Part shown: positions 35 to 20,410 of the stretch, piece after piece
Layout of the letters: every line of letters starts with the position of its first letter
How positions within the stretch are numbered: the first letter of the stretch is position 1
IMG/VR virus record: IMGVR_UViG_3300025598_000228
Coordinates: 1 to 20,410 of that record
Reading direction: 5' to 3' (one strand)
DNA length: 20,410 nucleotides
From: a virus
Made by a program: the position numbers and the translations under genes
Notes under the pieces: generated by a model
Seen by the model: the letters and a program-made list of their open reading frames with translations, nothing else
The model's database searches: none
Told to the model about the DNA's origin: nothing

Positions 35-2281
35 CTAAGCAGCAACACTGCGTGCCACATGGAGCGCCTGCACAATAGCATCGTCTGGCATGCTAAGCAT
101 TTGTTCCGTGTGGTGCGCCAATAGCTTCTGATTCCGCATTGATTCGCTAACAAGCTTATCTGCCGCCTTATCAATGACAGATCCGCCACTAGCCCTTTGT
201 TCACGAGGATTAGCATCTGCAGCATTGACACCCGTCATAGTCAAAAGGGTGTGATTTAAGAATGGCTCTAGTTTTTCAATTGTAGATTTGACCGCAGGTG
301 TCGTTTCTGCCAACTTTGAAAGTTCAAGAATTTTATTTTTGTCACCCGAAGCAAGCGTTTCTGCAACTTGTGTAGCAATACGTTTTTGCGCCAAACTTAT
401 TGTGCCTTGCACAGCTTTATTTGCCAACCACCCACCTATACCTACACCAGCGCCGACACCCGCTGATGTTGTGGTTAAACCTGCAAAAAGACCCGGAGTT
501 GCGGAGGCAATATCAACTAAAAATCTTCCCCAACCGGGCTTGGCGGAATCTGCTAGATTTGCGCTCAACTCAATCCGTTGCACATCATGAGTCATATTTT
601 CCAAATCAACCATTGTTTGAATTTGGTTGGCTTGGGTTCCATTTTTAGATGGAAAAACATCGTTTAGTTTGCCTACAGATGATGCTTTATCAAGGCCTGT
701 CAAAAGCTTATCAACTCCGCCCCTTGCTTTGTCTTGCATGGCAGAAACGAAACCTTCTTGGAATAATCCTAAATTTCCAGCGTCGTAATTTGATAGTGCT
801 TTTCTAGCACCCGCAGCATCAAAAGTGTTAAAACTTGAAGCGTAATTGTATCCAGCTTGCAAAGCATTTTTGGCTTTAAAGAAACCAGACGCGCCGTTGA
901 GAGCAACACCGTATTCAGGATTTTGAGAAATTAAATCATCTCTTAAACCATCGCGCAAATCTTCCAAACGCCCAGCAAGATTATTTTGGCCCTTTTGATA
1001 TGCTTCATTCACGCTGTCATCAAGGTTTTGTTTAACTTGGTCCCAATATTTTAAATTACCATTATACCCACCAAGTTCTTTTGTGGCTTTTTTAATTGCA
1101 TCTTCTGCTAATGGGTTCCCAATAACGCTTTGGACAAATGGAGATTCCACATCCCCAGCCATTGGATCATTAAGTGCTTTTTTGTAATTGATATCATTAT
1201 CAACCTTCTGTTGCGCAGAAATGTTTTCTTTTGTTTGTCCAGCATCAATATCTTTGCCCAATATTTCATTGAGGTTTGAATTGACGCGAGTTGCCGCCTG
1301 TTCGCCGCGTTGCGTTATAAAATCATTAATTTTCCTTGCTGCTTCTCTGGCGGGGCCAGTAACATTTGGCGCGATTAACTGCTGATCTTGACCACCAGTA
1401 ACATCATAAACCGACATTGGCTTTTGCGCTGTTATAGCATCTTGAATTTCTTGATCTGTCGGCGCTCTATTGTTTTCACGCGCAAGCTTAATCGTCTGAG
1501 CAATTCTTGTATTTGCTGCTTCGTTAGGATCTAAAATATTACCAACGACTTTTTTGCCTTGAATAGCACCTTCGCCAGTTACGCCTCCGGCAAGGGATCC
1601 TAAAATACCCAAAGCAGTTCTTGTGGTAGGGTCAGTTAAACCAATCATGTCTGCGGCTTTGTCAGCAGCCTCGACACCAGCTAAAGCCCCTGCTCCACGG
1701 ATAGCTTTTTCTGCCAGTTTCCCCTTGCCAAACATGCCGGGGGCCATGACATCTATTGCCGTTTGAGTAAATTGACCCGGAGGGGTTTGGGATTGATATG
1801 CTGGCCCAACTGGCAAAACCTGTTTGGCATACGGATCAACTGCTTGGGCAATTTCTTGTGTAGAATAAGGTCGGCCCTGCTCATTGGTAGCGCGAGCCAT
1901 ATCAACGGCTTTATTTACCAAATCAATTCGGGCTTTGCCTTCGGGGGTATTTGTATCACCGCGAGCAGCATTGTATAATTTAACCGCACCGACTTCAGTC
2001 GCAGCTACACCATTTTCAATGGCTTTTGAAACAAAATTCAACAAATCTGCAGGTGCATTCACCACGCCAATAGGAAGACGTTCAGTGGCCGCTAACGCAC
2101 TTTTGGGAACATCATAAGTAGGACGCAAGTCTGGCCGCGCAGACAACATACCAAGATCTGCGTCAGACAAAACAGGCTTATTAGGCAGTGTTGCAACCGG
2201 AACTTCTGCTGGTTTCTTAGTTGAACCCATTCCCAAGTCTTCATCACTCAATAGATCTGGTTGCGGCGCTTGATCCGTCAT
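35..2281 (-). CDS. Large virion (ejection-type) protein
   Basis: In this 748-residue protein, the N-terminus repeats LSDEDLGM (11-18) and LSDADLGM (38-45). Residues 190-245 (GAGALAGVEAADKAADM...ILGSLAGGVTGEGAIQG) and 586-626 (FLVDIASATPGLFAGLTTTSAG...VGIGGWLANKAVQG) are small-residue hydrophobic stretches that could insert in membranes. Between them lies a long helical, coiled-coil-like region. The C-terminus (from residue 696) is RASGGSVIDKAADKLV...LLAHHTEQMLSMPDDAIVQAL, a pattern of conserved ejection proteins in aquatic podoviruses (a GG box, a lysine/alanine helix, then an LLxxxDDxIxxAL helix). It overlaps the preceding giant gene by ATGA. The stop is TAG at the left end. The ejection role is inferred from length, composition and context. 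Confidence 0.68.
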   Translation of the reverse strand: MTDQAPQPDLLSDEDLGMGSTKKPAEVPVATLPNKPVLSDADLGMLSARPDLRPTYDVPKSALAATERLPIGVVNAPADLLNFVSKAIENGVAATEVGAVKLYNAARGDTNTPEGKARIDLVNKAVDMARATNEQGRPYSTQEIAQAVDPYAKQVLPVGPAYQSQTPPGQFTQTAIDVMAPGMFGKGKLAEKAIRGAGALAGVEAADKAADMIGLTDPTTRTALGILGSLAGGVTGEGAIQGKKVVGNILDPNEAANTRIAQTIKLARENNRAPTDQEIQDAITAQKPMSVYDVTGGQDQQLIAPNVTGPAREAARKINDFITQRGEQAATRVNSNLNEILGKDIDAGQTKENISAQQKVDNDINYKKALNDPMAGDVESPFVQSVIGNPLAEDAIKKATKELGGYNGNLKYWDQVKQNLDDSVNEAYQKGQNNLAGRLEDLRDGLRDDLISQNPEYGVALNGASGFFKAKNALQAGYNYASSFNTFDAAGARKALSNYDAGNLGLFQEGFVSAMQDKARGGVDKLLTGLDKASSVGKLNDVFPSKNGTQANQIQTMVDLENMTHDVQRIELSANLADSAKPGWGRFLVDIASATPGLFAGLTTTSAGVGAGVGIGGWLANKAVQGTISLAQKRIATQVAETLASGDKNKILELSKLAETTPAVKSTIEKLEPFLNHTLLTMTGVNAADANPREQRASGGSVIDKAADKLVSESMRNQKLLAHHTEQMLSMPDDAIVQALHVARSVAA

Positions 2282-5200
2282 TGTGGAGTGAATCCTTTAA
2301 TTGAATTTCTGTCCCAACCTTTACCCGCCCAAGTAGCAATAACGCCATTGGGGTATTGTGCTTTCATATCGCCGCCAAGCTGTTCATTAGGAATAACATA
2401 CTGATACCCAGAACGCCGTAATCCAGAATCGGGTAGATCGCCCAACACTGGAGTGGTTGCTCTTCCATTATCTACAAATTTGCCAAAATCATGTTGGGGA
2501 TCTTTTTGCCAATTTTGCAAAAATTGATTGTATTGAGCCTTTGTCGCCAACTTGCCATCTGTGGCACGCCAATCGTTATAGTCATTATAAAATTGATCTT
2601 CGTAATCCATTGCTCCCTTAGCAAACCCTATAATGTTTCGGTTTGTTTTTGGTTGCAAATCTGGATTCATATTAGCCTGTTTTTCGCCGCTTATTGTAGT
2701 CGCCAACAAACGCCCACCTAAGTCTTTAACTCGATCAAACATAGCTTGCGCAGAATCTTTTGCAAATGTCTCATAATTAGGAGAATCGCTATCTAATTTG
2801 TATTTATCTACATTTAATCCCAATGCATCTGCGTAGGCTGGCAATTTAGCTTTAATGTCACTTAATTTACCGCTTTGCCATGCGGACAAAATTTCTGAAG
2901 CATCGTTGATACGCGCCCTAGCCTGAGGACGTGTTTCAGCTTTGGATGCAAATTCATCATCAAGCTTATTCATATCTGCAACGCTAGTTTTTAAAACTTC
3001 CGCTTCTGCAGCTCTTTTTTGTGCAGCGGCAACGGCTGTTGGAGATGGGGCATAACCAGCAGGCTCACCTGTGTCGGGGTTGATTAATTTTGTAGCGCGT
3101 TGCCCAGTAGCGATTTCATCAGCTATTTTCCGATTGGCGGCAACTTGCTCAAGAGCTTGTTTTGCTTCTGTTTCCCGCGATTTGCCGAACCCTGACAAAA
3201 AGTTATATTCTTTCATTGCATCATCGGCAAGACTGTTAAAATATTCAGGAGTTGCATCAGGCGCTATGTCTGGAAAAGCCGCTGACTTTTGTGGAGTTCC
3301 CTTAATTTCAGCAACTTGAATTTTAGGCATAGATGTATCAACATCTCCCTCTCCCGCTCCGAGGGTAGAAGAAATTAATTTAGTAATATCTGATTTTTGT
3401 TGGATGGCATCTGGTTCAGGCATGGGAATATCCGCACTAGCTAAACCACTTTGTTCAGTTCCACCTAAGGCAAGACCAACTCTACCTCCTTTTGCACGCG
3501 CAGGTGGTGTTCCACCAATAACAAAAGAACTTAACCCCGGAGGAAGTTTTAACATTGCAGCACTATTTTCATAAATATTTATAAATTGTTCTTTGGAAAT
3601 ATTTTCGTTTGTTTCAATATTTTTATAAAATCCCCCTCTTTGCGGTTCATATTTTTGTTGTAATTTGTTCAATAACTCAAAACCGTTCTTGATTTGTTCT
3701 TGATTTAATTGCTGCCCACGAAGGCCTAGTTCGCCCTGTTGATAAGCAGCAGTATTCGCATCGGCATATGCCCGAAGCGCGTCTTCTTGGAGCTTTGTTT
3801 GATAATCGCGAAGAGATTTTGTTGCGTTATAATATGTTCCCAATCCTTCTTGAGCGCCTTCACCAACTGCAACGAAAGGATTAGTAGATTTGCTGCTAAG
3901 CATACCCAAGCCAGCAGCCATAACACCAAGATTAGCTTCATCCGATAACGGATGGCCAACAATCATTTCTGCAAGCGTTCTTGGTTTGTTCGGATCTGGC
4001 GGGGCTTGAAGATTTTGTAGCGTTTGGTTTATTTGACTCCCCATAGATGCAAGTTGGCTGCTATATCCGCCAACGCCGCCGGAGTCGCCATCATCTCCTG
4101 CATAACCTTTGCGGCCAACTACGCCACCAGATGCAAAATTATAGTCTGCAGCGGACTGCGGAACCCAATTTGCGTATTTTGCTGTTATATCAGCAGATGT
4201 TGGGGAATATGGCGAAAACAATCCGCCAAACGCAGATTTGATATTAGCGCGTTGCCCCGGCGTGGTCGTCGCGGATTTAATGATAGATGTAAGATCTGGA
4301 CTATCATCCTTGATTGCGGATGCTCTAGGTTCAGTTGTCCAACCTGTACGTACTTTTTGTACGTTAGCAAGAGGCATAATATCAGCAAGAGTTAATGGTG
4401 TCTGAGACCCGCCACTTGGTTGGTAAGTGTATGGAATATCGCTAAAATACGTTGATTCAACCCCGCCCCGCAAAGCGTAATTAGCCCGACCCAATCCTTC
4501 ATGGACTGCCCCACCCATAGAATCAGCCAAGCCACCGTGTGCAAAATGGCCCTTATCAGCAGCATGTTTGGTTGCATCATCATAGTTAAGATAACGCATG
4601 CCTTTGTCGTCTTTATGGACAGCAGATGGATTATGCTTTTCAACTTCCTGCGCGCTTAAGCCCATGCGGGTCGTGTCGTCGCCCTTGTAATTATATTTAT
4701 AAATATTCTGGCCATCGAAGGTTTTACCAACAGGCTCCATGTTTTCCTTGAACCGTTCATCGGATCCAAGCAAACCTGTTTGGCCTAAAGCTAAAGTTCC
4801 ACCAATAATAGATGAAAGCATATTGCCTGTTGGTTGAGATGTAAGAGCCGTGCCACCGGATTGGCCACCAATTCCCAATAGCAAGTTAGCAAGCAATTGC
4901 TCATTCTGATACGGGAATGCCTGAGCAGCTTGGAACTGCTGTTGATTTGCGGTATCTGTTGCTTGTTGAACGCCGCGTTGAACCGCGCCAGCACTCATTT
5001 GAGCTTGAGCACCTTGCAATGCAGCATTTTGCGCCCCAGTTCCTAATGCAGCCAATTGCTGTGATGTTGCTTGATCGATGCCAAATGCCTGACCAGCAAG
5101 ACCAGCTTGAGCCTGCGCTGCGCCAACGTCTTGAGAATATGCTTGTTGACCGATATTGGCCAATTGCTGTGCTGTCTGCGAACCAGCGCCAAAATTCTGT

Positions 5201-6084
5201 CCGGCCAAAGCAGCTTCTTCTTGGGCCGCAGATAGTCCTTGGCCAAAACCTTGCTGGCCCAATGCTGCGATCTGGTTAGCTTGGTTGGCCAATGCTGCAC
5301 GATTGGCTTGGTCAGCACTAAGATTAACGCCTTGTTGTTGTTGGAATGCGCCTAAACCTTGCGCATAACCCTGATTAAGCAAATTGCCTAACACATTTCC
5401 AGTAGCTATGTTCTGTTGGCCCTGCAAAGCAGCACGAGCCAAATCAGCACGCTCACCACCAAAAGCACCTTGCGTAATTTGATTGCCAATTAAACTCTGT
5501 TGGTCCATTTGCTGCTGTTGCTGCAATGGAGCAAGTGTACCCTGAACCACTTGGTTCATATATGGGTTCATGTATTGGCTTAATGCGTTTTGGCTAAATT
5601 GCTGAGCGTATACAGGAGCGGCTGCATTGCCAGCCAAATTGGTAGCTTGGGTAAGATAATTTTGGCCCTGCCCCAATGCAGCATTTACAGCAGATTCTTG
5701 CTGTTGAACTTGAGGAGTTAACTGCGAATACGCGGAATTTAATACATTTGTTGCATTTTGGTTGTATTGGGAGCCTAATTGCTGCCCCAAACCAACTTGA
5801 CTATATGCAGCTTGAATTTCTGGTAATGCTAAAGCTTGGCCTTGATTGATATCGGTTGTAGCTTGAGCGTAATAAGGTTGAGCTAAGCCAGCTGAAGCAT
5901 TTACATCTTGAATACCGGACTGCTCAGTGGGGGATAATCCCGCCACCATTTGGCCAGTATATTGCTGGTAAGGTTGGTTATATGTATTCCAAGCCAGACT
6001 TGTTAATTTATCATAATTTGCCTGTACGTCGGCAGGTGGGAGCGTTGTCGTAGTAGATGTCGATGTACCTGTAGAACCACACAC
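2278..6084 (-). CDS. Giant virion (internal/ejection-type) protein with internal S74 motif
   Basis: This is a 1268-residue protein starting at GTG. Residues 1-440 are Gln/Ala/Asn-rich and mostly helical; 262-370 repeat a Gln/Ala unit of about 37-43 residues (QQLANIGQQAYSQ, AQAGLAGQAFG). Residues 441-500 carry an S74-type intramolecular chaperone motif: SDERFKENMEPVGKT, IYKYNYKGDD, MGLSAQEVEKHNP, RYLNYDDATK. Ser441 and Lys446 have the spacing of the S74 Ser/Lys pair. It is followed by FAHGGLAD, FASGGVVGRKG and RAKGGRVGLALGG boxes. Residues 900-1268 are helical with a beta-rich end (YQYVIPNEQLGG, NGVIATWAGKGW). The organisation is that of internal proteins ejected into the host by podoviruses. 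It overlaps the next gene by ATGA. The chaperone motif is internal rather than C-terminal, so the cut may separate the Q/A-rich part from the rest. Confidence 0.72.
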   Translation of the reverse strand: MCGSTGTSTSTTTTLPPADVQANYDKLTSLAWNTYNQPYQQYTGQMVAGLSPTEQSGIQDVNASAGLAQPYYAQATTDINQGQALALPEIQAAYSQVGLGQQLGSQYNQNATNVLNSAYSQLTPQVQQQESAVNAALGQGQNYLTQATNLAGNAAAPVYAQQFSQNALSQYMNPYMNQVVQGTLAPLQQQQQMDQQSLIGNQITQGAFGGERADLARAALQGQQNIATGNVLGNLLNQGYAQGLGAFQQQQGVNLSADQANRAALANQANQIAALGQQGFGQGLSAAQEEAALAGQNFGAGSQTAQQLANIGQQAYSQDVGAAQAQAGLAGQAFGIDQATSQQLAALGTGAQNAALQGAQAQMSAGAVQRGVQQATDTANQQQFQAAQAFPYQNEQLLANLLLGIGGQSGGTALTSQPTGNMLSSIIGGTLALGQTGLLGSDERFKENMEPVGKTFDGQNIYKYNYKGDDTTRMGLSAQEVEKHNPSAVHKDDKGMRYLNYDDATKHAADKGHFAHGGLADSMGGAVHEGLGRANYALRGGVESTYFSDIPYTYQPSGGSQTPLTLADIMPLANVQKVRTGWTTEPRASAIKDDSPDLTSIIKSATTTPGQRANIKSAFGGLFSPYSPTSADITAKYANWVPQSAADYNFASGGVVGRKGYAGDDGDSGGVGGYSSQLASMGSQINQTLQNLQAPPDPNKPRTLAEMIVGHPLSDEANLGVMAAGLGMLSSKSTNPFVAVGEGAQEGLGTYYNATKSLRDYQTKLQEDALRAYADANTAAYQQGELGLRGQQLNQEQIKNGFELLNKLQQKYEPQRGGFYKNIETNENISKEQFINIYENSAAMLKLPPGLSSFVIGGTPPARAKGGRVGLALGGTEQSGLASADIPMPEPDAIQQKSDITKLISSTLGAGEGDVDTSMPKIQVAEIKGTPQKSAAFPDIAPDATPEYFNSLADDAMKEYNFLSGFGKSRETEAKQALEQVAANRKIADEIATGQRATKLINPDTGEPAGYAPSPTAVAAAQKRAAEAEVLKTSVADMNKLDDEFASKAETRPQARARINDASEILSAWQSGKLSDIKAKLPAYADALGLNVDKYKLDSDSPNYETFAKDSAQAMFDRVKDLGGRLLATTISGEKQANMNPDLQPKTNRNIIGFAKGAMDYEDQFYNDYNDWRATDGKLATKAQYNQFLQNWQKDPQHDFGKFVDNGRATTPVLGDLPDSGLRRSGYQYVIPNEQLGGDMKAQYPNGVIATWAGKGWDRNSIKGFTPQ
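4585..4764 (-). other. S74-like intramolecular chaperone motif
   Basis: Codons 441-500 hold SDERFKENM, YNYKGDD, GLSAQEVEKHNP and a following RYLNYDDATK strand. The Ser-x4-Lys spacing equals that of S74 domains that cut themselves off C-terminally in tail fibres. Here it is roughly one third into the protein. Confidence 0.68.
4975..5301 (-). repeat. Gln/Ala-rich protein repeats in the giant virion protein
   Basis: Codons 262-370 encode about three imperfect units with the pattern Q..LA.LGQQ....., AAQ.QA.LAGQ.FG. They probably form an extended coiled coil or helical rod. Confidence 0.6.
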
Positions 6085-12370: not shown

Positions 12371-12865
12371 TCAGAGTCCCAATATCATCGCATAAGCAAT
12401 AGACTGTGCTTGTGTAACATTTCCAACGCTTGATGAACTAGCCAAACCAACATTAGTCCCGTCGCAATACATAATAATGCTATAGGTGCGCGGAATAGCC
12501 AGCGTGCCACCTGCTGCGGCATTGCTGCCATTATTAGATCCTATAGATACGGTGTATATGCCCGTGGTGTTATTGGTAACAATCCACATCCCGCCAACGC
12601 TTTGTGGCAATAAAACCAATTGATTCGCCGCTAATGCACCCGTAAGCAGGAACCTCATGCACTGGGACGTATTACCCGCCGCCGTGGAACTAGGGGCCGC
12701 AATATTGGTGTATGTAGGGCTACCGCTGGTGCTGACCGATACGCTAGTCGTATTGCCAAACATCTGGTCAAGGATGGTGGCGTTATAGTTAAGCGGCTGA
12801 TCCCACGTAGGGGATGTGCTATTATACGCTGGTTCGTTAAGGGCAAGGTTGGTGGTAATACTCAT
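12371..12865 (-). CDS. Small tail fibre-like virion protein
   Basis: This is a 164-residue beta-rich protein. The N-terminal NLALNEPAYNS, TSPTWDQPLNYNATILDQMF (residues 6-36) is the usual opening of phage minor fibre proteins (W..xLNxNxxxLDxxFG). The middle, LLTGALAANQLVLLPQSVGG (73-92) with WIVTNNTTG and YTVSIGS, is a repeated-strand pattern also seen in fibre distal domains. The last residues, AQSIAYAMILGL, nearly match the end of the large fibre ([12 protein letters not shown]), although they are encoded 6 kb apart by different codons. It probably joins the tail tip or shares a docking site or chaperone with the large fibre. Its ATG overlaps the previous stop by 4 nt. Confidence 0.7.
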   Translation of the reverse strand: MSITTNLALNEPAYNSTSPTWDQPLNYNATILDQMFGNTTSVSVSTSGSPTYTNIAAPSSTAAGNTSQCMRFLLTGALAANQLVLLPQSVGGMWIVTNNTTGIYTVSIGSNNGSNAAAGGTLAIPRTYSIIMYCDGTNVGLASSSSVGNVTQAQSIAYAMILGL

Positions 12866-13100: not shown

Positions 13101-13331
13101 TTAAGATTCCCGGATGATCGCGGTAGAAGTATCCCTGTCAATGGATAGTACACCATAACAGACAATATTCCAATCCATACCATCCCGTTCATCCTTTACG
13201 GGAACATTAATATCCAAGTGCTTGAATAGGTATTCTTTGCCGCCATTTTCAAACACCCGCCAGACATGATCTTCCGTCCCGCGTCCCGGCTGGCCCCGTG
13301 TTTTATTAAAGCGGATGCCATACTTGTTCAT
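13101..13331 (-). CDS. Small conserved phage protein, function unknown
   Basis: This is a 76-residue soluble basic/acidic protein with the core KEYLFKHLDINVPVKDE (33-49) and DWNIVCYGVLSIDRDTSTAI. Similar short proteins of this kind recur in genomes of podoviruses and myoviruses from aquatic bacteria, but I know of no assigned role. No membrane segment is visible. Its ATG overlaps the oxygenase stop by 4 nt, so the two are translationally coupled. That makes a partner role to the oxygenase conceivable but unproven. Confidence 0.65.
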   Translation of the reverse strand: MNKYGIRFNKTRGQPGRGTEDHVWRVFENGGKEYLFKHLDINVPVKDERDGMDWNIVCYGVLSIDRDTSTAIIRES

Positions 13332-13972
13332 ATAACCTCCGCCGCGGGCATAGGTGGATTAGCCACTGCCGTCAGGTTAAAGTGTATGAAAGTCATTGGA
13401 TCGTTGGAAGCATTGCGGGTGAAACTGTGTGCCAACCAAGCATTGGTAAAGATCAACGTGCCGTCTTCCGGGGCAACATTAATAGCATTGCTTGCATGGG
13501 TAATGTTGGCGGGATCAAATTCTGGCAGTCCTATTTGGACCTTACCAGCACGGGGATCATGGAATGTAGCTACAGAACCGTTTTGCGGCGTCCTAAGGAA
13601 GTAAAACCCGACAATCTGTGCCCCATGTGCATGAACGTGCTGATCCATGCCGCTGTATTTATAATGCTGCTGCGCCCACATTTCGGTAAATGACGTGCTA
13701 AAATTACGCACATCATAGCCCTGTTCGCCCAAAATGTTCCATGCGGTTGCGCCGATATAAGCACAAAGGTCTTCCATACGCGGATCGTCGTACAAATTGT
13801 CTGTCATATAAACAGGGTACACCTCATGGGTGCCGCCCTGTTCCTTTTTGCGCTTTTCAATATATTCATCAACAACCTTGCGGGTGTTGTCCAAAAATTC
13901 CGGCTTTTTAATTACGTAAATGGTCGTTGGGAAGCAGTGTATTGGGTTTAGTTCATCTTTTGCGTCTGCCAT
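13328..13972 (-). CDS. Phage 2-oxoglutarate/Fe(II)-dependent oxygenase family protein
   Basis: This 214-residue protein follows the pattern of phage 2OG-Fe(II) oxygenases: FTEMWAQQHYK (95-105), a His cluster HVHAHG (112-117), VGFYFLRTP (121-129), a HDPR turn (138-141), and PEDGTLIFTNAWLAHSF (168-184), then FIHFNL. H112, H114 or H116 would give the N-terminal iron ligand and H182 the C-terminal one. The Arg or Thr that holds 2-oxoglutarate is not certain by eye. Members hydroxylate proteins, nucleotides or small molecules using O2 and 2-oxoglutarate; the phage enzymes have no proven substrate. It sits between fibre and lysis genes, 3 nt after the XkdW-like gene, and overlaps the next gene by ATGA. 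Late expression with structural genes suggests modification of virion or host-envelope components, which is inference. Confidence 0.78.
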   Translation of the reverse strand: MADAKDELNPIHCFPTTIYVIKKPEFLDNTRKVVDEYIEKRKKEQGGTHEVYPVYMTDNLYDDPRMEDLCAYIGATAWNILGEQGYDVRNFSTSFTEMWAQQHYKYSGMDQHVHAHGAQIVGFYFLRTPQNGSVATFHDPRAGKVQIGLPEFDPANITHASNAINVAPEDGTLIFTNAWLAHSFTRNASNDPMTFIHFNLTAVANPPMPAAEVI

Positions 13973-13975
13973 TGT

Positions 13976-14320
13976 TTATCCCCGTTGTTGCATTTCTTGC
14001 TGCATCTTCTCCATATTTGCAATTTCTTCCGCCGTCAAATTACGAACATTCCAAGAAAATACCCACTTGCCGTCCCGTACAAATGGCTGTTCTGAACGTG
14101 ACACAGTTTGTGTTTTTCCGTCATACGTAGGGTCTGCATCAATCTCCACATACTGGATGCGGTAGCCATGCACATTATATGCGTCAGTGGTTGGGAATAT
14201 CTCCACAAAGTCACTGTACGGCGTATATCCCAAGCCGGGATTATCCCGCATCAATTCTTCCGCACCATAGGGATATTCAACAAACTGATTGTCGGTGGTG
14301 GTTTTAACGTATCCGGTCAT
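13976..14320 (-). CDS. Small tail-associated protein, XkdW/fibre-assembly-like
   Basis: This 114-residue protein contains the series YGAEELMRDNPG (residues 19-30), DFVEIFP, YRIQYVEIDADPTYDGKTQ and GKWVFSWNVRNLTAEEI. An [LM]RxDNP box, an FP step, a PxYDxxTQ box and a GxWxxxWxV...LT.EE ending are shared with small proteins encoded next to phage tail fibres (XkdW-like and DUF4376-like families), often described as fibre-associated or assembly proteins. The C-terminal 20 residues are a Met/Gln-rich helix. It overlaps the upstream gene by ATGA. The family call is tentative because it rests on motif pattern alone. Confidence 0.5.
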   Translation of the reverse strand: MTGYVKTTTDNQFVEYPYGAEELMRDNPGLGYTPYSDFVEIFPTTDAYNVHGYRIQYVEIDADPTYDGKTQTVSRSEQPFVRDGKWVFSWNVRNLTAEEIANMEKMQQEMQQRG

Positions 14321-14934
14321 GATGATTTGTCCTCAAGAAATGCTGGTGCTTGTTTGGTAAGGAGATCAAGGCGTTCACCTTTCCCTGCCAGTTGGGTAAA
14401 TACCTGCTTGATATGCGGCACAATGTGCGTTTCAAAATCTGGGTGGCACCGCATTGTATTCAAATGGTCATGCGGAATATTGCCTTGGGACAGAATAAAG
14501 TTTTCCACCCGCCCCTGCAATTCACCTAGCCATTCTTCCCGCTGCATGGCTTCATTGGCTTCTAGCATAGGCAGATGACCAAATTTACGTTGTGGCTCAA
14601 GTTCCGCCATGATCTGGTTAATGGTGTTTAGTTCCATTATAGCGGCTTCATGGTTGTTTTTCCACGTGTCTTCCGCCGATTTACATTCAATGATCGTGGC
14701 TTCCGCAACCATCTTTTCCCAAGGCTTGGCGTTTTCATCAGCTATGATCGCCTCATTTTCCATGATTTTAGCGTCACGTTTCATTTTTTGGGCTTTGGAA
14801 TGTTCAACCTTTACTTCCATGTCAATGCGTTGACCATATAGCAATGCCCATGCGCCATCAGGCGTATAGCAAGACCCCGCCATGAAATGACGGAGTTGAA
14901 AGTCAGAATTATTACGATGCGGCTTACTATTCAT
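14317..14934 (-). CDS. Conserved helical phage protein, function unknown
   Basis: This 205-residue protein has an N-terminal motif LRHFMAGSCYTPDGAWALLY (residues 14-33) followed by a long charged alpha-helical, probably coiled-coil, region (about 35-145) rich in Glu, Lys, Ala and Met. A C-terminal helical part follows (EEWLGELQGRVENFIL, HPDFETHIVPHIKQ). I recognise the layout (a [FL]xxGSxxTPxxAWxLLY box plus a charged coil) from uncharacterised proteins near tail-fibre genes of other phages, but no function is established. There is no signal peptide or membrane segment. It starts 1 nt after paralogue C and its stop overlaps the next ATG by 4 nt, so it is probably co-translated with the tail genes. 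Confidence 0.6.
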   Translation of the reverse strand: MNSKPHRNNSDFQLRHFMAGSCYTPDGAWALLYGQRIDMEVKVEHSKAQKMKRDAKIMENEAIIADENAKPWEKMVAEATIIECKSAEDTWKNNHEAAIMELNTINQIMAELEPQRKFGHLPMLEANEAMQREEWLGELQGRVENFILSQGNIPHDHLNTMRCHPDFETHIVPHIKQVFTQLAGKGERLDLLTKQAPAFLEDKSS

Positions 14935-14935
14935 C

Positions 14936-15949
14936 TTATACGTTTACCCCTGTTGTACCATTTGATGCGGCAGATTGACCAGTAGAAGCAGCACTTGCGG
15001 CTGCACCAGTAGATACTACACATCCTGAATAAGTATATTTGTCACGGGCAGATGATGCGGAACCTGTACACCCTAAGGCAAAAATGCCTACCGTGGAATT
15101 GCCCGTAGCAGCTCCAGCATGGGATGCCGTTGTTGCACTTGTAGCAGATGTGTTTGTATCACCCGAATAGGTGTATTTGTCGCGTGTAGTTACATTATTA
15201 GAAGTGTATCCTAAAGCAAAAATACCTACGGTTGATGTACCAGTAGCGGATTGATAATAAGAAGCAGAAGAAGCCGATGTGCCACTTACACTTGTACACC
15301 CAGAATATGTATATTTATTTCGGGTTGAAAGTGGAGTTCCCGAACTATTTGCTCCTAAAGCAAATATTCCAACGGTAGAATTACCTGCTGCTGCACCATC
15401 AAGGGATGCTGTAGATGCAGCTGTCGCCGAAGAAACTGAACAACCAGAATAAGTATATTTTTCACGGGTAGTTAATGCCCCACACAAACTTCCATTGCTA
15501 GTTCCTAAAGAAAATATACCTACTGTGCTATTTCCGGCTGCTGTCCCCCCAAAACTATTACAACCGGATGCTGTGGCTGAAACAACAGCACAATTAGAAT
15601 AAGTATATTTTTCACGTTTATTAGAAACTATTCCTAAAGCAAAAATTCCAGCTGTAGAATTTCCCGCCGCCGCTCCACCATTAGAAACTGAATTTGATGA
15701 AGTAGCCACTGAATTAACATCAGAAGAAAATAAATATTTGTTCCTAACCTTTGATGAAGAAGTTGTATAACCTAAAGCAAATATACCAACGGCCCCAATA
15801 AAAGAATTTCCAGCAATAGGCCACAATCCCGCCTTCTGCCAGCCCACCATTTGGTCAATAGTCCATACACCAGATGCAGCACCACATTGGTAAGGACCAG
15901 CAGGTGTTATAGGTGATTTGGTGATGAAAGACCCCTGATATGTCCTCAC
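14936..15949 (-). CDS. Kelch-like repeat tail protein (propeller paralogue C)
   Basis: This 337-residue protein starts at GTG, which overlaps the TGA stop of paralogue B (GTGA), with AGGGG 7 nt upstream. Residues 1-54 form an adaptor with ASGVWTIDQM and AGLWPIAG, which shares the Gly-x-Trp...Gln-Met...Trp-Pro pattern with paralogue B. Six repeats follow, with GIF[AS]LG at residues 55, 101, 144, 194, 242 and 288. The first is the most diverged (KVRNKYLFSSD). The protein ends AASNGTTGVNV, matching paralogue A. It likely acts as a receptor-binding or tail-tip protein with the other two. Three adjacent copies point to duplication followed by divergence, or to a hetero-oligomeric adhesin. Confidence 0.75.
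   Translation of the reverse strand: MRTYQGSFITKSPITPAGPYQCGAASGVWTIDQMVGWQKAGLWPIAGNSFIGAVGIFALGYTTSSSKVRNKYLFSSDVNSVATSSNSVSNGGAAAGNSTAGIFALGIVSNKREKYTYSNCAVVSATASGCNSFGGTAAGNSTVGIFSLGTSNGSLCGALTTREKYTYSGCSVSSATAASTASLDGAAAGNSTVGIFALGANSSGTPLSTRNKYTYSGCTSVSGTSASSASYYQSATGTSTVGIFALGYTSNNVTTRDKYTYSGDTNTSATSATTASHAGAATGNSTVGIFALGCTGSASSARDKYTYSGCVVSTGAAASAASTGQSAASNGTTGVNV
14939..15787 (-). repeat. Six kelch-like repeats of paralogue C
   Basis: There are six in-frame protein repeats of 43-50 codons, with period lengths 46, 43, 50, 48 and 46 residues before the final unit. Variation in period comes from the loop between GIFALG and the TR/KR/AR step. Confidence 0.85.
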
Positions 15950-16854
15950 AGCGTAACCCCTAATATGCCGTTGGATGCGGCGGAACCACTGTAAGAAGCT
16001 GCACTAGCCGCTGTTGCAGCTCCATTTGTATCGCCGGAATATGTATATTTATTGCGGGTAGAAGAAGCACGAGATACACGCCCTAAAGCAAAAATACCAA
16101 CGGTAGAATTTCCTGCGGCTGAACCATAAAATGATGCGGCACTAGCTGCCGTTCCGGATGATACAACGCAACCAGAATATGTATATTTATCACGGGTAGA
16201 TAAAGCACAACCAGAAGTAATTCCTAAAGCAAATATTCCAACTATACTATTTCCTGCCGCCGATCCTGATTGTGAAGCAAAACTAGCAGCTGTGGCTGTT
16301 GCGTTAGTATCCCCCGAATAAGTATATTTATTGCGGGTAGTTGTAAGGTTACCCAAAGCAAATATACCAACGGTTGAATTTCCCGATGCTGAACCAAAAG
16401 AAGTTGAAGCAGAAGATGCTGTTGCTGACGCATTTGAGCAACAAGCGTATGTAAATTTATTACGGGTTGTTGTGCAACTACCTAAAGCAAATATGCCAAC
16501 GGTTGAATTTCCAGTTGCCGCACCAGCATATCCGGGGGCGCTAGATGACGCAGCTATTGCATTAGTATCACCCAAATAAGTGTATTTATTACGGGTTGTT
16601 GTGCCACTACCTAATGCAAATATTCCAACTGTAGAATTGCCAGTAGAACCATTGCTTGTACAAAAAGCGGCACTAGAAGCAGTTGCAATAGAATTTACAC
16701 AACCAGCATAAGTATATTTATTTCTGGTAGTGGATGGACCACAGGCACAACCTAAAGCAAATATAGCCAACGTCCCGTCAAAAGGAGGCCAATTACTTGC
16801 CGCCACCGCTTGCATCTGCTGTACTAAGTTCCATGAGCCGGAGTAATTAGGCAT
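15946..16854 (-). CDS. Kelch-like repeat tail protein (propeller paralogue B)
   Basis: This 302-residue protein starts with the short adaptor MPNYSGSWNLVQQMQA and NWPPFDG (residues 1-27). The Gly-x-Trp...Gln-Met...Trp-Pro pattern is seen at the N-terminus of many kelch-repeat phage structural proteins. Six repeats follow, with [AG]IFALG at residues 30, 77, 120, 163, 206 and 253, each followed by TR[ND]K[YF]TY. Loops between IFALG and TR are shorter than in paralogue A in repeats 2-4 (for example SGTT and NLTT). The protein ends AASNGILGVTL. The start ATG shares its A with the TAA stop of paralogue A, and a GGAG lies about 10 nt upstream. It is probably a distal tail adhesin; the target is unknown. 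Confidence 0.75.
   Translation of the reverse strand: MPNYSGSWNLVQQMQAVAASNWPPFDGTLAIFALGCACGPSTTRNKYTYAGCVNSIATASSAAFCTSNGSTGNSTVGIFALGSGTTTRNKYTYLGDTNAIAASSSAPGYAGAATGNSTVGIFALGSCTTTRNKFTYACCSNASATASSASTSFGSASGNSTVGIFALGNLTTTRNKYTYSGDTNATATAASFASQSGSAAGNSIVGIFALGITSGCALSTRDKYTYSGCVVSSGTAASAASFYGSAAGNSTVGIFALGRVSRASSTRNKYTYSGDTNGAATAASAASYSGSAASNGILGVTL
15949..16767 (-). repeat. Six kelch-like repeats of paralogue B
   Basis: There are six in-frame protein repeats of 43-47 codons, spaced 47, 43, 43, 43 and 47 residues apart. Repeats ending in SGDTN and in SGC-type sequences nearly alternate (C, D, C, D, C, D). Confidence 0.85.
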
Positions 16855-18044
16855 TATACGTTTACTCCACAGGTTCCATTGGAGGCGGCGGAGCCAGTAT
16901 ATGATGCAGCACTAGCAGCCGTACCAGAAGCATTAACACATCCAGAATATGTATATTTGTTGCGGGTTGTTGATGGACTGGTTGTATATCCCAACGCAAA
17001 TATACCAACTGTTGAATTTCCCGCCGCTGATCCTTGAAACGATGCAGTGCTTGCGGCAGTTCCTGAAGAAACAACGCAACCTGAATACGTATATTTATCA
17101 CGGGTAGTTGATAAACCAGTTGTATAACCTAAAGCAAATATACCAACAGTGGAATTACCCGTTGCCGAACCTAATCGCGATGCAGTTGTTGCGCTTGTAG
17201 CAGAAGCATTTGTGTCACCAGAATATGTATATTTATTACGGGTGGCCACACCACTGCAACCGTTAAACCCTAAAGCAAAAATACCAACCGTTGAATTTCC
17301 AGCGGCTGATCCTTGAGACGATACAGCGCTTGATGCTGTGGCTGAAGTATTAGTATTTCCAGAATACGTATATTTGTTGCGGGTGGTTGAGGCGCTAGGT
17401 GCATACCCCAAAGCAAAAATACCAACGGTAGAATTACCAGTAGCTGAACCAGAGTATGAAGCATTAGTAGATGAAGCGCCTGATGATACAACGCAACCTG
17501 AATACGTGTATTTATCACGGGTGGTTGAACGCCCAACACCGCAAACATTTCCTAAAGCAAATATACCAATTGTTGAATTTCCAGCGGCTGATCCAAAATC
17601 AGAATTGGCAGTAGCGGCAGTTCCTGAAGATACCACACATCCAGAAAATGTATATTTGTCACGGGTAGTCAAAACTGTTCCGCAGACATTTTGTCCTAAA
17701 GCGAAAATTCCAACAGTTCCTGCCACAAAGGGAGTCGCACTATTACTTGCGGCACTGAAAGCAGATGGTCCATAAGCATTATTGGCGCTTACGGTAAATG
17801 TATAAGCCGTACATCCTGTTAAACAGTTAATCGTAATAGGCGAAGATGCCCCAGTACCAGTTTTAAAGCCGGGTGTAGCAACTGCGGTATACGACGTAAC
17901 TGCCCCACCACCTACGCAGCTAGGTGCAGTAAACGCGACGCAGGCTTTTTGGTTTCCCGCCGTAGCAGAACCAATAGTAGGCGCATTTGCTACTTTTAAG
18001 CTATTAAAAGCACTGATTAAGCCGCCAATATACCGCTTGGACAT
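16854..18044 (-). CDS. Fibronectin III-kelch-like repeat tail protein (propeller paralogue A)
   Basis: This 396-residue protein has three parts. Residues 1-20 are a short leader (MSKRYIGGLI...). Residues 21-107 form a fibronectin type III-like domain with the usual APTIGSATAG start, AVTSYTAVATPG middle and AYTFTVSANNAYGPSAFS end. Residues 112-396 hold six kelch-like repeats, each GIFALG, a variable loop, TR[DN]KYTYSG, then a Ser/Thr/Ala stretch and GSAAGNSTV. GIFALG begins at residues 112, 160, 208, 254, 301 and 348. Such repeats are known from phage tail-tip proteins and are expected to fold as a beta-propeller or a related beta array that binds host surface glycans or proteins. Cysteine is common: C35, C43, C74 and C78 in the Fn3 part, and after SG in four repeats. 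The stop overlaps the next start by one base. The family assignment is strong; the ligand is unknown. Confidence 0.75.
   Translation of the reverse strand: MSKRYIGGLISAFNSLKVANAPTIGSATAGNQKACVAFTAPSCVGGGAVTSYTAVATPGFKTGTGASSPITINCLTGCTAYTFTVSANNAYGPSAFSAASNSATPFVAGTVGIFALGQNVCGTVLTTRDKYTFSGCVVSSGTAATANSDFGSAAGNSTIGIFALGNVCGVGRSTTRDKYTYSGCVVSSGASSTNASYSGSATGNSTVGIFALGYAPSASTTRNKYTYSGNTNTSATASSAVSSQGSAAGNSTVGIFALGFNGCSGVATRNKYTYSGDTNASATSATTASRLGSATGNSTVGIFALGYTTGLSTTRDKYTYSGCVVSSGTAASTASFQGSAAGNSTVGIFALGYTTSPSTTRNKYTYSGCVNASGTAASAASYTGSAASNGTCGVNV
16857..17711 (-). repeat. Six kelch-like repeats of paralogue A
   Basis: There are six in-frame protein repeats of about 46-48 codons. The DNA is strongly diverged between units: GIFALG and NSTV use different synonymous codons in most copies. 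The last repeat ends with the cap AASNGTCGVNV. Confidence 0.85.
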
Positions 18045-18050
18045 GGTAAT

Positions 18051-18056
18051 TCCTTA
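18051..18056 (-). promoter_or_regulatory. Ribosome binding site fused to a stop codon (TAAGGA)
   Basis: The TAA stop of the preceding gene forms TAAGGA, which ends 6 nt before the ATG at 18044. The layout is the same as at 18456-18461 and it supports the chosen start. Confidence 0.7.
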
Positions 18057-18449
18057 CGATATCGCCTCATATGAAATACTGTATGTAATGCCGCTTGCCG
18101 TACCAGACGTAACCGTAATGGACGTATTTTCCGTCAGATAAATCGCCGTTGATTTATCCGTTACGATCAATGATGCGTTTGCTGGCACGGACACAGTGGA
18201 TACAACTGGGTATGCCGTACCGCCTGATGGAGCCGAACCCTGCGCTACCGCACCGTTAGTGTAAATGGATACCGTGGCGTTTACCGCCGTGGAACCGTTG
18301 ACGTTGGCGGCTACGATTTGGTCAATACGATACACCGTGTTGGAACCGGAAGCATTGGCAAGCAGCACCACGGCAGACGTTCCCGACGGGGTGTAGTAGG
18401 TAGTGTTACCTGTGAGCGTTGTTAGTGCCGCCAAATTTGGATTTGACAT
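18054..18449 (-). CDS. Small beta-rich virion structural protein
   Basis: This 131-residue protein is predicted to be all-beta: alternating hydrophobic and Thr/Ser stretches such as AVVLLANASGSNTVYRIDQI, VSTVSVPANASLIVTDKST, AIYLTENTSITV and a final YSISYEAIS. The pattern (position-anchored strands, a VPA turn, a [ST]xxIYLTE strand, an aromatic C-terminal strand) is familiar from small uncharacterised virion proteins of marine and freshwater phages that sit next to fibre genes. No enzyme motif is present. It lies 9 nt after the fibre gene and 9 nt before the first propeller gene, so a role in the distal tail or as a decoration protein is likely. Its exact position in the virion is unknown. 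Confidence 0.65.
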   Translation of the reverse strand: MSNPNLAALTTLTGNTTYYTPSGTSAVVLLANASGSNTVYRIDQIVAANVNGSTAVNATVSIYTNGAVAQGSAPSGGTAYPVVSTVSVPANASLIVTDKSTAIYLTENTSITVTSGTASGITYSISYEAIS

Positions 18450-18455
18450 TTATAA

Positions 18456-18461
18456 CTCCTA
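18456..18461 (-). promoter_or_regulatory. Ribosome binding site fused to the fibre stop codon (TAGGAG)
   Basis: The fibre stop codon TAG supplies the first bases of TAGGAG, whose AGGAG core lies 6 nt before the ATG at 18449. It fixes the start of the next gene and suggests that ribosomes ending the fibre restart here. Confidence 0.75.
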
Positions 18462-20410
18462 AAAACCCAGAATCATGGAATATGCTATCGCCTGTGCCTT
18501 GCTAGGTCCAGACGCAGCAGGTGTTGAAGATACCCACGTCGTACCGTTTGACGTTAACACATTGCCAGATGTTCCCGGCGCAACAACTTGTAAAGCCGAT
18601 GTGCCATTGCCTAACAATACATTATTTGCGGTTAAACTACTAGCCCCTGTGCCGCCGTAAGCTACACCAATTACACTAGCATTCCATGTTCCGCTAGTAA
18701 TTGTGCCAATGCTGACCAAAGACGAAAGCGTTGTGACCGCCGTATTAACCAATGTGCCGGATGGGGGCAGCGTTACGTTGGTGGCGGCTGTCGTCGTTAA
18801 AGTTAAAGAAAAAGCGCCAGACGTGGCAAGGGTTGAGCCATCCGCCAAGGTTAAAGTAGACCCCGTGGCAGGGGCCGTAATAGTGACTTTGTTAATGGAT
18901 GTAGCGGAGGCAACACCTAATGTTGGCGTTACAAGCGTTGGCGACGTAGCCAATACGATGCCGCCAGACCCCGTTACGTTTTGGCCTAATGCAGTTTGAA
19001 CACCCGTACCAAAAGAAGTGATTCCCGTGCCGCCATTGGCAATATTCAATGTGCCACTTAATGTTACAGCACCAGTTGTAGCTGTATTAGGAGTGAAGCC
19101 TGTAGTTCCTGCGCTGAATGATGAGACATTTGTAGGCAATGTCGCCCATGATGCTGTCGTGCCGTTGGATGTAAGAACATAACCATTGCTGCCAATAGCT
19201 AACCGCGTTGCGCTATTAGTTCCATTCCCGATGATTAAATCACCAGTAGATGTAATAGGCGATAGCGCATTAAAGGCTGTGGAAGCTGTCGTTTGCCCAG
19301 TACCGCCGTTTGCAATTGGCAATGTACCCGTGACGCCTGTGGATAATGGCAAGCCTGTAGCATTTGTAAGGGTGGCAGATGAAGGCGTACCCAAAGCTGG
19401 CGTTACCAATGTTGGCGATGTTGCCAACACAATGCTGCCCGATCCGGTGACATTCTGGCCCAATGCCGTCTGAACGCCTGTGCCAAAAGACGTAATACCC
19501 GTTCCGCCGTTGGCAATGTTTAACGTACCACTAAGTGTTATAGCACCTGTGGTTGCGGTATTGGGCGTGAATCCCGTTGTGCCTGCGGAGAATGAAGATA
19601 CGCCGCCAGAAGATGCTGCCCACGATGCAGTTGTGCCGTTAGACGTTAGCACATACCCGCTAGTTCCTATGGCAAGGCGCGTAGCACTATTGGTTCCGTT
19701 ACCAATAATAAGATCACCAGTTGTCGTAATAGGAGACAACGCATTAAACGCAGCCGATGCCGTAGTTTGACCTGTGCCGCCGTTTGCTATGGCTAATGTG
19801 CCACCTAATGTCAGTGTGCCTGACGATGTAATAGGTCCGCCTGTTAGCGTTAATCCTGTTGTTCCGCCTGATCCGTTAACACTTGTTACAGTACCCACAC
19901 CAGAAATAGTGGTCCAAGCAGGATCAGCACCTGCACCTTTGGTTTGCAATAATTGGCCTGATGTACCCGGCGACAGACCAACCCAACCACCAGAACCACG
20001 GAAAATCATTTCGCCTTGCGTGTTACCAATGTTGCTATCCAAAATAGCAGATAATGACACGCCAGTTGGAACACCTGATGCCGATGAATTATTGGACAAA
20101 ATGGTGAATGCAGCCTGCGACGCAAAGGCAATCGTTCTATTGGCCGTTAGATCGCCGCCACCCGTCAGACCAGACCCCGCCGTAATCGTAATAGAAGATG
20201 CCGCCGCGCCGATTGTTGCAGGTGTAATTGTAGAACTGGATGCTGCCGTGATGCGACCATAACTATCCACCGTAATTGTGGGGGCGGATGATGTGGAGCC
20301 ATACGTTCCCGCCGTCACACCCGTAGTAGGCAATGAAATAGTGCCAGTAGTGGTTATCGTACCTCCAGATAAACCGCTACCAGCTGTCACTGATGTAACC
20401 GTACCAGTGC
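18459..20410 (-). CDS. Tail fibre-like repeat protein, 5'-truncated by the window edge
   Basis: The reading frame is open to the right edge. The GTG at 20390 is internal, because the codons upstream of it continue a typical fibre motif ([16 protein letters not shown]). The visible 650 residues are almost entirely Gly, Thr, Ser, Ala and Asn, with the recurring phage-fibre signatures [16 protein letters not shown] and ATSPTLVTP. Two 131-residue copies of one module occupy residues 201-331 and 359-489, numbered from that GTG. Such low-complexity beta-rich proteins form trimeric distal tail fibres or tips that contact the host. The C-terminus ends [12 protein letters not shown] and nearly matches the end of the 164-residue protein at 12371-12865. 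No hydrolase or S74 chaperone domain is visible in the C-terminal part. The role as a fibre is family knowledge; the receptor is unknown. Confidence 0.8.
18924..19316 (-). repeat. Fibre module copy 2 (131 codons)
   Basis: This is the second copy of the fibre module, offset by 158 codons from copy 1. Protein differences are few: ASTAFN for ASAAFN, SPITST for SPITTT, IGSNGY for IGTSGY, and a changed linker after TTASWA. A 27-residue spacer ([15 protein letters not shown] and following) separates the copies. Confidence 0.85.
19398..19790 (-). repeat. Fibre module copy 1 (131 codons)
   Basis: This is the first copy of a module in the tail fibre gene. It runs from [12 protein letters not shown] through [18 protein letters not shown] to ATSPTLVTP. 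It aligns without gaps to copy 2 except around a short linker after GTTASW. The DNA of the two copies differs at many third codon positions although the protein is nearly identical. Confidence 0.85.

Follow-up and report, generated by a model that had tools for sequence, protein, structure and literature searches.

Recombination is already known to swap receptor binders among phages. In T-even phages, as Tetart 1998 is summarised in PMC7468147, adhesins are swapped, and their hypervariable binding segments lie between conserved motifs that serve recombination. Flexible gene modules, or metaviromic islands, have further been described, in which phages with near-identical core genomes interchange homologous host-recognition genes (PMC7468147, PMC3909814). 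Another group of phage receptor binders, the tentaclins, is diversified by diversity-generating retroelements (DGRs) (PMC10743442).

Here, three consecutive genes (K1, K2 and K3) of an uncultured freshwater virus infecting bacteria are compared with these systems; "the window" denotes the whole 20.4-kb virus record that was analysed (Table 1). As in the T-even adhesins, so far as that summary describes them, the K genes hold hypervariable, putatively binding segments flanked by conserved recombination motifs, and glycine-rich adhesin-like bodies occur on K-type N-terminal tags; unlike them, the K genes have another fold and repeat, and a whole six-unit body moves among three paralogous slots. 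The flexible modules likewise occur in near-identical genomes with exchanged host-recognition genes; however, these reports describe each module as swapping its own variants (PMC7468147, PMC3909814), whereas the K slots share one pool and have no slot identity. With the tentaclins (PMC10743442), the K proteins have in common a variable, putatively binding surface, a conserved scaffold and Ig-like domains as spacers, but no reverse transcriptase was found here and the variation appears to arise by exchange of old alleles. The tail region of the metagenome-assembled phage DSL-LC04 (OR003939.1; PMC10611076) shares with the window a homologue of the 131-aa gene, a 2OG oxygenase and tags of the same type, yet its bodies are Gly_rich_2 and LamG lectin domains rather than six-unit repeats. 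The open-licence literature yielded no account in which parallel slots draw on a single pool of six-unit bodies, and nothing relevant on kelch-like phage receptor binders. Overall, we consider it fairly likely that K1–K3 serve a short-tailed phage as tail-associated adhesins, each built from a tag and a propeller body, with the bodies reassorted between slots by recombination.

Three N-terminal tags on a shared six-unit body

Splitting each protein at the motif [AG]IF[AS]LG delimited exactly six units in K1, K2 and K3 alike, 43–50 residues long (typically about 46), with the consensus GIFALG-loop-TTR[ND]KYTYSG[CD]..S.GTAATAAS-xx-GSAAGNSTV. Over the aligned parts, identity to K1 reaches 71% for K2 and 64% for K3, far above chance. 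Three scans of viral contigs provided 110 distinct complete genes from relatives, 108 of which contain exactly six units; the two exceptions are a gene of six units broken by a frameshift (L032) and a gene of five units at a contig end (L109). Unit spacing in the relatives varies from 37 to 71 (mean 46.7) with the number of units held constant. As a weak control, given four complete examples only, the upstream fibre carries 3 versus 5 motifs. The sequence-only reading had described adjacent genes overlapping by 1 and 4 nt, each with the same repeat six times, and had reasoned that freely varying repeat numbers in related genomes would speak against it; the ORF coordinates (overlaps TAATG and GTGA) and the unit counts bear out this description. 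As a correction to that reading, the N-termini are three different modules; it had also noted neither the two variable sites per unit nor the exchange of bodies between the genes.

Table 1. Features of the window discussed in the text.
Feature	Position	Strand	Basis or remark
K1	16854-18044	minus	ORF, 396 aa
K1 N-terminal module, residues 1-111 (MSKRYIGG start + fibronectin type III)	17712..18044	minus	Pfam fn3, PDB profiles, AF2
K1 body, six units + C-terminal GSAASNGTCGVNV	16854..17711	minus	motif splitting, count in relatives
K2	15946-16854	minus	ORF, 302 aa
K2 N-terminal tag MPNYSGSWNLVQQMQAVAASNWPPFDGTL	16768..16854	minus	conserved in 27 K2 homologues; found on unrelated bodies elsewhere
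K2 body, six units	15946..16767	minus	motif splitting, count in relatives
K3	14936-15949	minus	ORF, 337 aa
K3 N-terminal tag MRTYQGSFITKSPITPAGPYQCGAASGVWTIDQMVGWQKAGLWPIAGN...	15788..15949	minus	conserved in 41 K3-type homologues
K3 body, six units	14936..15787	minus	motif splitting, count in relatives; near-identical copy in L080
131-aa gene, conserved, upstream neighbour of K1	18054..18449	minus	DSL-LC04 homologue annotated putative lectin; 44% identity, E 1e-32
Fibre-like structural protein, upstream; 5' end beyond window	18459..20408	minus	PHROG virion structural protein 2.2e-11
205-aa gene, conserved, downstream bound of island	14317..14934	minus	synonymous differences low vs bodies in six of seven relatives
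2OG-Fe(II) oxygenase	13328-13972		Pfam 1.9e-10
Tail gene	7531-9774		matches "stabilization protein" genes of tailed phages
1268-aa ORF	2278-6084		Peptidase_S74 domain, residues 441-489; 9.4e-8

The N-terminal domain of K1 belongs to the fibronectin type III (FN3) family: Pfam fn3 matched 29 of 30 K1 homologues (best E 1.3e-6), with no match for the window K1 alone, PDB profiles matched it to titin FN3, and AF2 gave a pLDDT of 66–82 over most of the module. K2 begins with a short tag of the YSGxW type (MP[NS]YSGxWxLxQQ.QA...W), and K3 with a longer tag of the YxG...GVW type that ends GVWT.D....W.K.GLWP.AGN. Each K gene is made up of one of these conserved tags and an exchangeable body. Scanning with the K2 profile showed that further phage proteins bear the short tag as well, joined to GLFGGG repeats, Gly_rich_2 domains (L166, L174), WD40-like repeats (L176) or FN3 plus repeats (L186). 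A Gly-rich body even occupies the K2 slot in L025 and, judged from sequence, in L138. In the corresponding neighbourhood of DSL-LC04, one tag bears two Gly-rich stretches and another, of the K3 type, six LamG lectin stretches. Since the same tags carry such varied bodies, the tag is probably a common anchor, and the bodies themselves are probably glycan- or receptor-binding. Adhesins are recognisable as a variable domain behind a conserved anchor adjoining tail genes, and this is the arrangement found here.

All 15 GLFGGG...NVIDYVTIATTGNATDFGDLTVAR repeat proteins with a K-type N-terminal tag also have six units. When the tag was removed, comparison of the body and GLFGGG family profiles gave an E of 0.03 versus 0.89 for a reversed control, which is suggestive only. 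We do not propose that the two bodies descend from a common ancestor, and the 98.9% match over the full length is due largely to the tag.

Whole-body exchange within a hypervariable island

Slots were compared across the 16 genomes that have all three genes. Between genomes, K1 bodies, with a mean identity of 0.54, are no more similar to one another than paralogous bodies are, at 0.56–0.61 (56% for both K1–K2 and K1–K3). When the 48 bodies were placed on a tree, slot labels required 23 changes, against a mean of 23.0 after shuffling, and 109 of 200 shuffles were as low; by sequence, the bodies are without slot orthology. In a near-identical relative of the window (L080), the K3 body groups as sister to a K1-slot body from another genome (L123; support 99). 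Whole bodies are exchanged across slots: near-identical copies occur as K3 of L015 and K2 of L027 (94.7% over 843 nt) and as K1 of L038 and K3 of L118 (96.5% over 836 nt), and in both pairs the identity starts at the tag/body junction and stops near the stop codon. Each arrangement was seen on a single metagenome contig, which leaves some room for assembly chimeras as the source of these pairs, although copies only 95–97% identical and a break in frame speak against that.

Between phages, each slot also changes independently of the others: L018 and L042 are identical in K2 and K3 and differ in K1, L006 and L010 are near-identical in K2 only, and L015 and L018 have only K1 in common. Over roughly their final 9 kb, K3 included, contigs 3300044619_000130 and 3300042350_001432 are virtually identical, and their K2 differs by ~30%. 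The latter contig (60.7 kb; L112 and L125) has both ends inside K genes, which suggests that assemblies break there owing to mixed alleles in the population. The complete K1–K2–K3 triplet is common, being present in 21 contig records, but not universal, as other contigs, many of them truncated, carry one or two copies; relatives with one, two or three copies, which the sequence-only reading had proposed to seek, are therefore all found.

Alignment of 648 units revealed a near-invariant framework with two hypervariable sites per unit. Site 1 is the stretch of 2–10 residues after GIFALG, where 568 of 626 first loops are distinct, and site 2 comprises the two residues before GSA. In the relatives' units, Asp, Glu, Lys, His and Trp each make up 0.4% or less of the first loop, which is Cys-rich (8%), and alignment position 64 is Cys (61%) or, alternatively, Asp (35%). 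In nucleotide comparisons, the K genes stand out as an island of 0.56–0.79 identity (200-base bins; a few junction bins are higher), with the bodies themselves at 60–75%, between flanks mostly at 0.92–1.00. The fibre-like gene is such a conserved flank, with identities to L006 and L018 mostly of 0.92–1.00 and lower bins of 0.85–0.86. In six of the seven relatives compared, the fraction of codons that differ synonymously at identical residues is 0.42–0.57 in the bodies versus 0.14–0.20 in the 205-aa neighbour; L129 is the exception, its neighbour having itself diverged (0.47). Because the synonymous differences of the bodies are 2–4 times those of the flanking gene in these six, the bodies are read as old alleles brought in by exchange and not as new mutations.

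Alternative folds and sources of variation

The sequence pattern makes a closed six-bladed beta-propeller the probable fold of the body. A closed ring is the simplest reading because the unit number stays constant (108/110) although the loops change length, and an invariant count of 40–50-residue units is what a six-bladed propeller calls for; the earlier suggestion that six units suit such a propeller thus gains weight from the relatives. The order of elements agrees with ring closure too: no GSAAGNST precedes the GIFALG with which the body opens, and its last segment is GSAASNGT..G.N. In the proposed model, each unit would supply strands B, C and D of one blade and strand A of the next, with the C-terminal segment providing the strand A that blade 1 otherwise lacks. 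The two hypervariable sites would correspond to the B–C and D–A loops of a meander blade, both on the same face, which would give each body a single binding face with about twelve variable loops.

The Keap1 Kelch domain is a kelch-repeat six-bladed propeller. By analogy with such propellers, the bodies would combine six units of about 46 residues, strand positions at GIFALG and KYTYSG, closure by a C-terminal strand and two loops on one face. In contrast to kelch repeats, however, they have a single G after AL instead of the GG doublet and no Trp at a conserved position, although the Tyr is present, and no Pfam kelch profile matched K1–K3, 30 K1 homologues or the consensus body. The sequence-only reading had placed the proteins in a family of kelch-like phage tail proteins, an assignment that we do not retain: neither Pfam nor PHROG gave a usable match for the bodies. 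The body is not of the kelch family by sequence, and "kelch-like" is an analogy only, though it may work like a kelch propeller. Short TraD/DUF matches on the consensus body resembled low-complexity chance and were set aside. A PDB profile search with the bodies returned no relative, nor did bacterial and archaeal genomes, and deposited phage records searched with K1, K3 and the consensus body gave no match.

An open beta-solenoid or beta-helical fibre, which would leave the adhesin role unchanged, appears unlikely. What speaks against the propeller is that AlphaFold, run on alignments of 30–41 sequences, gave low confidence (pLDDT 57.8 for K1 and 43.9 for K3) and that no sequence family connects the body with a known propeller; the K1 model shows four strands per unit in its later units, at low confidence, and the K3 model is worse. 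Foldseek matched the FN3 domain and weakly matched the K1 model to beta-helical pectinolytic enzymes, with no propeller match, and fibres commonly contain Ser/Thr/Gly-rich repeats; but these matches derive from a low-confidence model, and a solenoid sits poorly with a unit number that is constant in 108 of 110 genes despite varying loop length and with a unit 1 that lacks its leading strand while the C-terminus has an extra one. As to how the variation arises, its concentration at two sites per unit could point to production in place, either by targeted hypermutation (a DGR) or by site-specific inversion. This is extremely unlikely: the loops vary in length, the synonymous differences of the bodies exceed those of the flanking gene as described above, and RVT_1, resolvase and integrase domains were absent from 18 related records, of which most may be fragments. 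A DGR target would have a reverse transcriptase and a template repeat nearby, and with RVT_1 absent from these records the K genes do not qualify.

The simplest explanation is general recombination at the conserved ends, where homologous recombination would move bodies from a shared pool between slots and phages. Homing-endonuclease-like genes lie between K genes at L057:3620-4429 (GIY-YIG + NUMOD3) and L086:7414-7959 (NUMOD3), and they open with a copy of the K3 tag (MSNRWPGG) or of the K2 tag (MPSYSG) at the N-terminus, which gives the impression of an insertion into the tag. It is speculation that these tag-bearing genes may promote exchange.

Functional readings and the surrounding genes

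We infer both a position in the virion and receptor binding for K1–K3. The tags would act as three fixed docking slots, such that each phage displays up to three binders in changing combination. Modular tags, hypervariable sites and exchanged bodies are all in keeping with the earlier idea that the genes form a stock of alternative, presumed receptor binders. More specifically, and more tentatively, it is possible that three slots draw on one shared pool of propellers with some twelve variable loops each, and that general recombination reshuffles the propellers as entire cassettes with no dedicated diversification enzyme. If so, the fixed six-unit frame with two variable sites per unit and slots without identity would amount to a naturally occurring display scaffold that can be likened to antibody loops, and would explain how near-identical freshwater phages can track diverse hosts; the distinct loops already collected would make a large natural library for studies of binding specificity.

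Two other roles were weighed against that of adhesins. K1–K3 could be surface decoration proteins of the head or tail that bind environmental glycans or mucus instead of the infection receptor, as the LamG lectin bodies on the same tags, the several copies per genome and the lack of any direct link to adsorption might suggest. We regard this as unlikely, because the K genes adjoin fibre-like genes and vary like the host-recognition modules of other phages (PMC7468147, PMC3909814). The three proteins might instead assemble into a mixed, hetero-oligomeric tip, for which the overlapping genes, implying coupled production, would argue. Such a tip is very improbable: the bodies do not co-evolve, one changing while others stay identical (L018/L042, L006/L010), the copy number ranges from one to three, and the sequence gives no hint of mixed trimers, the differing tags suggesting separate docking.

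Several further observations concern the genes around the putative adhesins. The 2OG-Fe(II) oxygenase gene lies beside them; an oxygenase of this class is also present in the DSL-LC04 neighbourhood, and similar genes occur there in relatives. Two window proteins have a common C-terminal motif (positions 18459-18500 and 12371-12420), one version of which reads AQSIAYAMILGL, and in DSL-LC04 a neighbouring protein ends in the comparable SIAMAMIFGF. The Peptidase_S74 intramolecular chaperone domain of the 1268-aa ORF is internal and not terminal.
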